From contig JAGYPB010000006.1 of assembly GCA_018399135.1 (NCBI GenBank), forward strand, positions 1 through 64,000: 64,000 nt of DNA, written 5' to 3'. Source of the DNA: Deltaproteobacteria bacterium (GTDB taxonomy: Bacteria > Desulfobacterota > Desulfuromonadia > Desulfuromonadales > Geopsychrobacteraceae). Below, one piece after another: positions 856 through 62,491 of this stretch (within the stretch, counting starts at the first letter, position 1; every line of letters begins with the position of its first letter). A program made the translations under genes and the position numbers. Below the pieces are notes generated by a model. That model was not told the DNA's origin. It saw only the letters and a list, made by a program, of their open reading frames with translations, and did not search any database.

Positions 856-919
856 GTATTTATTCAGCACTGGCCATCGGATCCCATGGCCCCGCACAAG
901 GAAAGGGCTGAATCGTTAC
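856..919. repeat. Short MITE-like element (64 bp) with 13-bp terminal inverted repeats
   Basis: The left end GTATTTATTCAGC (856-868) and right end GCTGAATCGTTAC (907-919) match the terminal repeats of the longer elements elsewhere in the window (11/13 and 12/13 to GTAACTATTCAGC). The interior contains GGCCAT and ATGGCC as an internal palindrome around GGATCC. The flanking eight bases (TCCCTTCT and TTCATTTT) agree at only 5 of 8, so any target duplication has decayed. The remaining bases between the GGDEF gene and the Mla operon (825-1018) show no convincing gene. Confidence 0.55.
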
Positions 920-9627: not shown

Positions 9628-9696
9628 TAATATCTCCTTTAATCAGCAAATGAACAGTCATTGACAAGGTATCAGCAGCTCTTTATAGTCGCTGCC

Positions 9697-10404
9697 ATGA
9701 AAGCAATATTTCTATCCGACGCCCATCTCCGCTCTTTTGCGGATGACAACTATCAGGATCTACTTAATCTGTTGGATCAACAGAAAGATCTCGACGCCCT
9801 GTTTTTGCTCGGTGATATCTTTGAGTTCTGGCTGGGTTATGACCATCTGGTATTTTCAGCCTATGTGCCACTTCTGGAGCAGTTACGCCGCCTTGGGCAA
9901 GGGGGAACCAAGCTGTTTTTTGTAGAGGGTAATCACGATTTTTCCATCGGGCCCTACCTTCGCGACACCCTGAAGTGCACTATTATCACCGAACAGGCAC
10001 TGATTCAATGGGACAACCGTCATATTATGATCAGCCATGGCGACCTGGTTCACCCGACCTCAGCCTATTTGCGTCTACGAAAATTGTGGCGCAGTTCATT
10101 TATCAAGTTGCTGACGCGTATAATTCATCCGGATCTGGTCTGGAAATTCGGCCTCTGGTTGAGTGACAAATCACAGCAAAAACGCTCTCAACACCAACCT
10201 TCCGACCCCACACCATGGCTACAGGAGTTTAACGCAACCTCGGTTGACGAAAGCTGCGACCTGGTTATTTGTGGTCATTTCCATCGTCCGGTTTTTTTTC
10301 GGCAGCACGGGCGCGAGATTATTGCTCTGGGTGATTGGCAGACCCGTCGCAGTTACGCACAACTCATTGACGGCCACATCACTATTTTATCTTATCCAGG
10401 TTGA
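9697..10404 (+). CDS. lpxH: UDP-2,3-diacylglucosamine hydrolase-like metallophosphoesterase
   Basis: A calcineurin-like phosphoesterase of about 236 residues. Metal-binding motifs appear in LpxH order: SDAHL (residues 7-11), GDIFEFW, GNHDF, SHGD and CGHFHRP. LpxH cleaves UDP-2,3-diacylglucosamine to lipid X and UMP in lipid A synthesis at the inner membrane face. I chose the ATG at 9697 (MKAIFLSDAHL), which matches family starts; the TTG at 9661 would add twelve atypical residues. It stands alone rather than with other lpx genes. The last base of its stop codon is part of the 8-bp duplication flanking a mini-element. Confidence 0.8.
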   Translation: MKAIFLSDAHLRSFADDNYQDLLNLLDQQKDLDALFLLGDIFEFWLGYDHLVFSAYVPLLEQLRRLGQGGTKLFFVEGNHDFSIGPYLRDTLKCTIITEQALIQWDNRHIMISHGDLVHPTSAYLRLRKLWRSSFIKLLTRIIHPDLVWKFGLWLSDKSQQKRSQHQPSDPTPWLQEFNATSVDESCDLVICGHFHRPVFFRQHGREIIALGDWQTRRSYAQLIDGHITILSYPG

Positions 10405-10411
10405 ATTATCC

Positions 10412-10448
10412 GTAACTATTCAGCTGTAATCCTGTGCTGAACAGATAC
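10412..10448. repeat. 37-bp minimal MITE-like element with perfect 8-bp target duplication
   Basis: It consists of only the two terminal repeats, GTAACTATTCAGC (10412-10424) and GCTGAACAGATAC (10436-10448), separated by 11 bases. AATTATCC occurs directly before (10404-10411) and directly after (10449-10456). It lies across the 3' end of the minus-strand BrkB-like gene and encodes its last ten residues and stop. Confidence 0.88.
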
Positions 10449-11828
10449 AATTATCCTTTCTTTATCCAGTCGCTCGGCAGAATCACTTTCGTTTAGCTGG
10501 CTGCGCATCACCAGATCCTTTAATGTCACCTTGCCAAATTCGGTTTCAACCAGGGCGGTAAGGCTGTGACAGGTTTCCAGCGCTATCTGCGTTTGCGGAT
10601 GGGGATGCAGATACAATACATCCTCGCCAACATTACGCAACATGCTGTAGATGTTGGAAACACTCACATTGTCAGCATCACGGCCAAGCTGATAACTGGG
10701 CCAACCGACATGTCCGTTTATTTCAGTCACCAGACCGAGCTGTTCAAGCTGCGTGAGGATGACCCGGCACAACCGCGGGGGCACATACAGTAATTGGGCC
10801 AGTTTGTCATGGTTGATCGCCGGATCTCCCCGATGGAAACGATGAGCCAGGGTCACCAGAAGCGCCAACGCCACCTGTTCATAACTGCGACGATTAACCT
10901 CATCCCGGCGTAGATCGCGCGCACCAGTACGCAGATTCTGTTTAGCGTAACAGACCCCAAGACCGAACAAAACAATCACCCACGATAAATACACCCACAC
11001 CATAAAAACCGGCAGTGCTGCCATCGTTCCGTAGATGGCATTATAGCGAGCAACGCCAACCTGAAAATGAACATAACCCAGTTGAGCTATCTGCCACAAT
11101 GTTCCGCCAACAACCCCACCGATAAGGGCCGCTCGCCACTGAACCTTGATATTCGACATGAAGACGTACAAGAGGGTGAAAGCCAGCCACATGAAGATAA
11201 AAGGGGTAACTTTAAGCACAAAAACAATCAAAGAGCCAATCATCTGCATTTCAAGTAAACGTTGGGTGAAGCTGTGGCTGATCAACGATGACGTCATGGA
11301 AATGGCACTGATCAACAGAACCGGACCGACCAGAATGACTGAAAGGTAATCAGAAAAACGCCGCAGCAAAGGTCTGAGCTTATAAACACCCCAGATATCA
11401 TTGAAGGCCGCTTCGATATTAGTCAATAGGGAAATCACAGCAATAAGCAGGAAAACAAGGCCGACAGCACCCATCTGGGCGACCTGGGTATTGTTGATAT
11501 AGCCGACAATGGCTTCTGCAATTTGTCCATCTCCAACATTCAGCTTGTCCAGAATCAATGGCTGCAACTGATTCTGGACTCCAAAAGCTTTAAGCAACGC
11601 AAAGGTCAACGCCAGCAAGGGCACCAGCGACAGGATGGTGTAATAGGTCAAGGCTGAAGCACGCAAGAAACTGCGATTGCTGTAAAAATCACGGATAACC
11701 AATACCACCATCTGCAATTGGCGTAACAGAGTCCGCTTAACCCAGGACATCTCCTGTAGATCCTGCTCCCAAACCAACTGCTTGAGCTGTTTTTTCCAGC
11801 TCTGATGCTGAAGGACTGTTTCTGTCAT
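10416..11828 (-). CDS. YihY/BrkB family membrane protein with C-terminal winged-helix-like region
   Basis: Inner-membrane protein of 470 residues. Residues about 30-300 carry six hydrophobic segments with the family stretches SALTYYTILSLVPLLALTFA, IWGVYKLRP, WRAALIGGVVGGTLW and YNAIYGTMAALPVFMVWVYL. The remaining ~150 residues look like a soluble winged-helix domain (HDKLAQLLYVPPRLCRVILT, LEQLGLVT), a known extension of this family in some proteobacteria. The family was once called ribonuclease BN, an annotation now rejected; the function is unclear. The last ten residues (VSVQHRITAE) and the stop are encoded by an inserted 37-bp mini-element. Confidence 0.88.
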   Translation of the reverse strand: MTETVLQHQSWKKQLKQLVWEQDLQEMSWVKRTLLRQLQMVVLVIRDFYSNRSFLRASALTYYTILSLVPLLALTFALLKAFGVQNQLQPLILDKLNVGDGQIAEAIVGYINNTQVAQMGAVGLVFLLIAVISLLTNIEAAFNDIWGVYKLRPLLRRFSDYLSVILVGPVLLISAISMTSSLISHSFTQRLLEMQMIGSLIVFVLKVTPFIFMWLAFTLLYVFMSNIKVQWRAALIGGVVGGTLWQIAQLGYVHFQVGVARYNAIYGTMAALPVFMVWVYLSWVIVLFGLGVCYAKQNLRTGARDLRRDEVNRRSYEQVALALLVTLAHRFHRGDPAINHDKLAQLLYVPPRLCRVILTQLEQLGLVTEINGHVGWPSYQLGRDADNVSVSNIYSMLRNVGEDVLYLHPHPQTQIALETCHSLTALVETEFGKVTLKDLVMRSQLNESDSAERLDKERIIVSVQHRITAE

Positions 11829-26433: not shown

Positions 26434-26588
26434 ATAACTATTCAGCTCTATACTTGCGCAGGGCCTTCGGATCCTGTGGCAAGAGTGTCTGTCGCCATGG
26501 ACGGCGACAGCAAGCGGTCATGGATGACCCAACGGGAAACAATCACGTCCCTTGACATAGGATCCCCTATCCGTTGCTGAACAAATAC
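26434..26588 (+). repeat. Long MITE-like element (155 bp) at a terminator T-tract
   Basis: Left end ATAACTATTCAGC (26434-26446), right end GCTGAACAAATAC (26576-26588). The interior is nearly identical to the copy at 29120. It includes CTGTCGCC/GGCGACAG and GGATCCTGTG/CATAGGATCC pairings that allow a long folded structure. Runs of seven T stand on both sides, consistent with a duplicated T-rich target. Confidence 0.85.
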
Positions 26589-62348: not shown

Positions 62349-62491
62349 GTAACTATTCAGCACTGTCCTGGCGCAGGGTCGGGGGTCCTGTGACAAGAGT
62401 GTTTGTCGCCATGGAAGGCAACAACAAGCGGTCATGGATGACGAAAAGCGTCCCTTGACACAGGATTCCCGATCCGGTGCTGAACAGATAC
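62349..62491 (+). repeat. Long MITE-like element (143 bp) with perfect 8-bp target duplication
   Basis: Left end GTAACTATTCAGC (62349-62361), right end GCTGAACAGATAC (62479-62491). CCTTATTC stands directly before (62341-62348) and after (62492-62499). Compared with other copies it lacks about ten bases in the GGGAAACAATC region. It lies exactly between the pyrD stop and the ribosome-binding site of the fusion gene. Confidence 0.92.

Follow-up and report, generated by a model that had tools for sequence, protein, structure and literature searches.

A 37-bp unit beside lpxH in a Pelovirga genome, probably derived by internal deletion from an abundant type II MITE with ISBst12-like ends

In this work, we examined a 37-bp unit located between an LpxH-like gene and a convergent BrkB/YihY-like gene. 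It probably derives from a copy of an abundant type II MITE family that was inserted in trans and then, most likely, lost its interior in place. The window, i.e., the whole 64-kb stretch of DNA analyzed, belongs to a draft assembly (2.86 Mb in 153 contigs, 84.9% complete; hereafter G000). Read directly, positions 10404-10456 of the window contain, in order, AATTATCC, GTAACTATTCAGC, TGTAATCCTGT, GCTGAACAGATAC, and AATTATCC; the unit proper spans 37 bp (10412-10448) inside a perfect 8-bp repeat of AATTATCC (8/8). A sequence-only reading of this DNA had described two 13-bp repeats standing 11 bases apart within a perfect 8-bp duplication and had noted that the same ends bound elements of 143-155 bp in the window. 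Our results agree, with three such longer elements confirmed, except that the inverted ends GTAACTATTCAGC and GTATCTGTTCAGC share 11 of 13 bases and are thus imperfect. The features concerned are as follows.

9661-10404, plus strand: intact LpxH-like metallophosphoesterase gene (PF00149), the upstream neighbor
10404-10411, no strand: 8-bp target duplication AATTATCC, left copy; the lpxH stop codon ends on its first A
10412-10424, plus strand: left 13-bp end GTAACTATTCAGC
10425-10435, no strand: 11-bp interior TGTAATCCTGT; of a direct repeat at the putative deletion joint, one copy is left (ATCCT, 10429-10433)
10436-10448, minus strand: right 13-bp end GTATCTGTTCAGC, read on the top strand as GCTGAACAGATAC
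10449-10456, no strand: 8-bp target duplication AATTATCC, right copy
10416-11828, minus strand: convergent BrkB/YihY-like gene (PF03631); its stop codon (10416-10418) lies within the unit
856-919, minus strand: degenerate 64-bp unit (ends 11/13 and 12/13; repeat 5/8)
26434-26588, plus strand: 155-bp MITE member in a T run, with an ambiguous target duplication
29120-29273, plus strand: 154-bp MITE member (target duplication 8/8)
62349-62491, plus strand: 143-bp MITE member (target duplication 8/8)

A scan of the 64-kb window for 11/13 inverted pairs of 26-61 bp within an exact 8-bp repeat returned one match, which is the 37-bp unit. Resampling the window 50 times with a first-order Markov model gave no match in the same scan, indicating that the unit is beyond chance expectation. 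The YihY-like reading frame enters the unit and takes its last 10 codons from the element, and some units of this MITE family may add codons to proteins in the same way. An open frame at another locus (L061, 460-1431) reads through a 57-bp unit at 577-633 (peptide VSVQHRIENL...). The BrkB/YihY-like protein also has an Rrf2-like winged-helix match at its C-terminal residues 318-440. The window contains no tRNA gene and the 53 bases at 10404-10456 had no match among phage records, so a tRNA or phage context for the unit was dropped.

The history of the site was examined in 21 relatives, among which the YihY protein was present in 20, at 21 places. Two of these loci (L090 and L095) have no lpxH, and the junction was read at the other 19, one of which (L093) is partly masked. 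The 37-bp unit was absent from all 18 readable lpxH/yihY junctions and from the partly masked one. The nearest junction (L078) is that of G002, the sister species Pelovirga terrestris M08fum as judged from units with matching coordinates, where lpxH and yihY overlap by 13 bases. Its alignment to the window has a single gap of 45 columns (37 + 8) immediately past the lpxH stop. The exact empty site therefore comes from one species, the farther junctions being too diverged for base-by-base alignment. Since relatives have this junction without the unit and P. terrestris lacks precisely 45 bp, the unit, as judged from these alignments, is a true insertion. The sequence-only reading had proposed looking for an unoccupied site between the LpxH-like and BrkB-like genes of close genomes, and such a site exists.

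The ends of the unit are abundant in the source genome. The exact end pattern has 100 + 102 occurrences in G000, compared with zero for a reversed control pattern. Among exact-end units, 22 are short (31-61 bp), with lengths of 37 (two), 55 (one), 56 (five), 57 (eleven), 58 (two), and 59 bp (one), and 29 are long (gap of 100-130 bp, one end form on each side). Most units of both classes are flanked by 8-bp repeats, which are perfect in 10/22 short units and 16/29 long units (p = 0.58); this similar preservation favors neither order of insertion and last deletion. A wider catalog comprises 63 units from a subset of the approximately 100, after six of 69 pairs with both poor ends and poor repeats were dropped. 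MITEs are recognized by terminal inverted repeats, by a target duplication together with an empty site, and by many copies at unrelated sites. The 37-bp unit has 13-bp ends (11/13), an 8/8 duplication that matches a 45-bp gap in the sister species, and the numerous copies of its ends counted above. It is a small copy within an already known class, the type II MITEs.

The second 37-bp unit of G000 (C95:19819-19855; L066 320-356) has two right ends that form a near-perfect palindrome, a different interior, and no surrounding target repeat. The 57-bp units in this genome have the loop of their inner hairpin either way round (GGGG or CCCC), which could reflect small inversions of the loop or an exchange between the arms. 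Many G000 contigs break within elements of this family (e.g., C1:41, C12:23, C16:58, C24:34, and C46:33). Assembly is thus interrupted by this family, and the gaps could conceal a complete IS copy. Four contigs of a further genome (G006: C28, C30, C37, and C64; starts of L068-L071) were considered as long copies; this was ruled out because they are usual MITE copies joined to other sequence. Some of the joined sequence resembles what we take to be group II intron ends, and these loci perhaps represent an intron targeting the MITE.

Comparisons among units provide the evidence for origin by internal deletion. Prefix/suffix tests of the 37-bp unit against every longer unit in the collection showed that it equals, base for base, a 57-bp unit of the same genome (L042; C35:5931-5987) minus 20 bp. 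A prefix of 22 and a suffix of 20 bases from this sibling span all 37 bases, with a 5-bp overlap that is the direct repeat ATCCT. In seven comparisons with long units, the 37-bp unit is also contained as a prefix plus a suffix with no overlap, such that a long unit could also have given rise to it in one step. The 144-bp MITE has two arms, each with the block AGGATC-NNN-GATCCTGTG (by eye), and a 57-bp unit remains when one 87-bp period is removed. Exact 144-bp parents were found for three distinct 57-bp sequences representing five units (L018/L045, L044, and L046/L164; best overlaps of 9, 6, and 1 bases, respectively). The other 55-65-bp units had no exact parent among the copies in the collection, which is expected if mutations followed or if the parents lie outside the collection. 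Judged by these sequences, the 55-59-bp units look like recombination products between repeats inside the 143-155-bp MITE. The deletion joints lie at three or more places, namely the left-arm loop, the right-arm loop, and the TTGACATAGG arm (by eye), and these different positions suggest repeated independent deletions. Short units were nearest to other short units in 11.8 of 22 cases versus 8.3 expected (p = 0.07). This result leans towards clustering without reaching significance, and an argument from it for the amplification of one short lineage was dropped.

No second copy of the 37-bp sequence was found in its own genome, in the matches from the order, or in the species collection, where a search with the exact ends of the unit yielded only 56-58-bp units from other species. 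The sequence-only reading had offered two origins for the unit. A remnant left by loss of an interior fits best, given the derivation from a 57-bp copy by loss of 20 bp, and trans insertion of an ends-only unit fits less well. The check that it proposed for other 30-40-bp copies gave units of that size (a second 37-bp unit in G000, one of 35 bp in G022, and units of 33 and 37 bp in G067) and no recurrence of this particular 37-bp sequence in the collections above. Its further suggestion that the unit defines the least DNA that the transposase needs was not supported, as no second copy was found and nothing shows movement at 37 bp.

For the enzyme, the evidence points to an ISBst12-like, single-ORF group of the IS66 family. 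Profile matches to the IS66 DDE domain (PF03050) were absent from the 84.9% complete G000 and present in seven of 20 relatives (eight hits). Only one of these hits, L121 in G008, is bounded by the 13-bp ends; of the others, three have GTAAGCG ends and four have no pair of the 13-bp ends. Classical IS66 elements were ruled out as the source, since L114, L115, and L118 have GTAAGCG ends. The L121 IS is 1723 bp long, with ends GTAACTATTCAGT/GTAACTATTCAGC and a 6/8 repeat. It carries a single 483-aa ORF on the transposase strand that is identified as an IS66 transposase by both NCBIfam (NF033517) and Pfam (PF03050). A single ORF with an IS66 DDE domain and no tnpA/tnpB is the criterion of the ISBst12 group, and these traits are found in this IS copy, not in the 37-bp unit.

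Homologues of the L121 protein were found in nine of 136 genomes of the order, six of them full-length (G008, G129 twice, G097, G111, and G091). All six, from five genomes, are bounded by GTAACTATTC-type 13-bp ends lying 1702-1728 bp apart (1-3 mismatches allowed). A homologue was also present in 181 plasmid records. The four examined, including the annotated ISGka4 (ends GTAACTATTCAGC and GTATCTATTCAGC, repeat 8/8), all have such ends; mismatches to the end form of the window number 1-3 in both ends in two of them and in one end in another. The 8-bp target duplication was perfect in two of the six copies from the order (8/8, 8/8, 6/8, 4/8, 3/8, and 2/8) and in three of the four plasmid copies, the rest being 6/8 or worse. 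Past 13 bp the two ends of the IS differ, with a promoter-like block near one end that begins at varying distances, which marks the 13 bp as the shared core. Based on these sequence matches, the ends of the 37-bp unit are very probably those of ISBst12-like, single-gene elements within the IS66 family. This would tie an orphan MITE family, found in Pelovirga and related bacteria, to a little-studied branch of IS66, with only 13 bp common to both IS ends and the MITEs.

No homologue of the L121 transposase was detected in G000 or its three Pelovirga congeners. A full-length autonomous copy in G000 was also sought and rejected, as end pairs 0.9-3 kb apart proved to be separate small units where resolved, and no transposase was recognized between them (by eye). 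A source in trans or a past source is assumed because no transposase was detected in G000, and with none of this type seen in the genus, there is no visible driver for recent movement of the short form.

Very small units with these ends also occur elsewhere, as units of 29-50 bp were found in six of 136 genomes of the order. G022, which belongs to another genus of the same family, has 16 short exact-end units of 35, 42 (eight), 43, 47, 49, 53, 54 (two), and 57 bp. Its eight 42-bp units (L104, L111, L113, L157-L160, and L162) have 16-bp interiors, lie at different sites, and all have 8/8 repeats; two pairs among them are identical in sequence. The 35-bp unit has a 7/8 repeat. Among the 29 long exact-end units of G022, 14 have perfect repeats, eight have 7/8, and seven have 3-5/8. 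The excess of perfect repeats in the 42-bp class (eight of eight units vs. 14 of 29; one-sided Fisher test picked after the data were seen, p = 0.008) is the opposite of what is expected for aged remnants. The seven long copies with repeats under 6/8 may be recombined or misassembled, and excluding them raises p to about 0.055 (hand calculation). For five of the eight units of 42 bp, an exact long parent was found (overlaps of 2-3 bases), and their left and right variants are paired as in these parents, which fits repeated deletion. In G067, from another family of the order, there are units of 37 bp (L202 1501-1537, 11-bp interior, 5/8) and 33 bp (L206 1501-1533, 7-bp interior, 6/8). The repeat is 8/8 at a 48-bp unit in G049 and 6/8 at one of 47 bp in G097.

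Taken in sequence, the proposed history begins with a MITE with 13-bp ends that appears to have been inserted beside the lpxH stop codon once this lineage had separated from the other Pelovirga genomes, duplicating 8 bp of target; the comparison with relatives supports this step well. The enzyme would very probably have been a trans-acting DDE transposase from the ISBst12-like, single-ORF elements of IS66, because such 13-bp ends bound such IS elements. The middle would then have been lost by deletion between short direct repeats flanking hairpin-forming sequence, as is strongly suggested, whether in a single event or by way of a 57-bp intermediate (143-155 to 57 to 37 bp). For this single copy, the last deletion may have occurred in place after insertion, with the perfect duplication made by a longer parent, and we favor trimming after rather than before insertion. 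Such wear of a MITE removes the middle through internal repeats and leaves the ends and the target duplication, so a perfect duplication around a tiny unit is no proof of its movement.

The main rival is that the unit was already 37 bp long at insertion, a transposase in trans having used 13-bp ends separated by 11 bp and generated the AATTATCC duplication. The perfect 8/8 repeat at the unit is compatible with this, as are the tiny units with good repeats elsewhere (eight 42-bp units with 8/8 and a 35-bp unit with 7/8 in G022, and a 33-bp unit with 6/8 in G067). The recognized end may also be as short as 13 bp, the only stretch common to both IS ends and across species. However, the exact derivation from the 57-bp sibling by deletion at a 5-bp repeat needs no movement, and both the lack of a second copy and the lack of an ISBst12-like transposase in the genus count against this rival. 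Duplex DNA is also stiff, which makes it hard for ends 11 bp apart to pair, and we consider this order of events unlikely, at perhaps one chance in a few. The broader notion that the transposase needs little beyond two 13-bp ends, with units of about 35-57 bp mobile as such, is likewise doubtful. The 42-bp class of G022 is a better candidate for a minimal mobile unit than the 37-bp unit of the window, and it makes the question of the least DNA for the transposase approachable by a simple assay. If these units do move, few natural transposable elements would be shorter than these eight, and bringing such close ends into synapsis would call for pairing in trans, for a hairpin, or for a single-stranded intermediate.

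Two further explanations have far lower probability than insertion at 37 bp. A longer MITE could be present at the real site, its hairpin skipped by a short-read assembler. Collapse of a hairpin is conceivable in such an incomplete draft, and many of its contigs end inside these elements (ends within about 120 bases of several contig starts). Nevertheless, the unit is well away from the ends of its 80.7-kb contig, short units are also found in the named strain P. terrestris M08fum (five), and the breakpoints have direct repeats like biological deletions, making such an artifact very improbable. Least credible of all is that the sequence is no transposable element and instead a conserved hairpin, e.g., a terminator, with a chance 8-bp repeat. 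The position between convergent genes would suit a terminator, and the strand folds weakly into an imperfect hairpin (-8.9 kcal/mol), but the same junction exists in relatives without the unit, and these empty sites refute a conserved structure. These ends moreover occur about 200 times at unrelated sites, and most short and long units are flanked by 8-bp repeats, both of which also speak against it. Internal deletion of a trans-inserted MITE is the reading that we carry forward.

In the searchable text of one open-access library, we found no record of this MITE family and none of its end sequence save in one unrelated chicken paper, and nothing relevant among descriptions of the shortest or smallest MITEs. 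The ISBst12 group is characterized by a single transposase ORF with an IS66 DDE domain and no tnpA/tnpB (PMC12898284). ISDge4, placed in this group by its authors, has ends GTGACTACTCAGCA/GTAACTGCTCAGCA and an 8-bp repeat (PMC12898284). The ISBst12-like elements (ISGka4 and ISDge4) and the 37-bp unit share 13-bp ends and an 8-bp target duplication; in contrast to them, the unit has no transposase, and only its ends are common with the IS copies in the order. Type II MITEs resemble an IS in the terminal repeats only, and MITEs in general measure 50-500 bp, according to a 2024 review (PMC10969869). The same review cites QMITE1 of Coxiella, whose copies measure 39-400 bp and are better conserved at the ends, and Chunjie, a Geobacter MITE of 178-235 bp (PMC10969869); direct repeats of 2-3 nt are given for QMITE1 in another paper (PMC5896051). 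The present family differs from QMITE1 in the length of its target repeat (8 bp vs. 2-3 nt), and it has discrete small classes of 55-59 and 42 bp, unlike the size gradients of type II MITEs such as QMITE1 and Chunjie.
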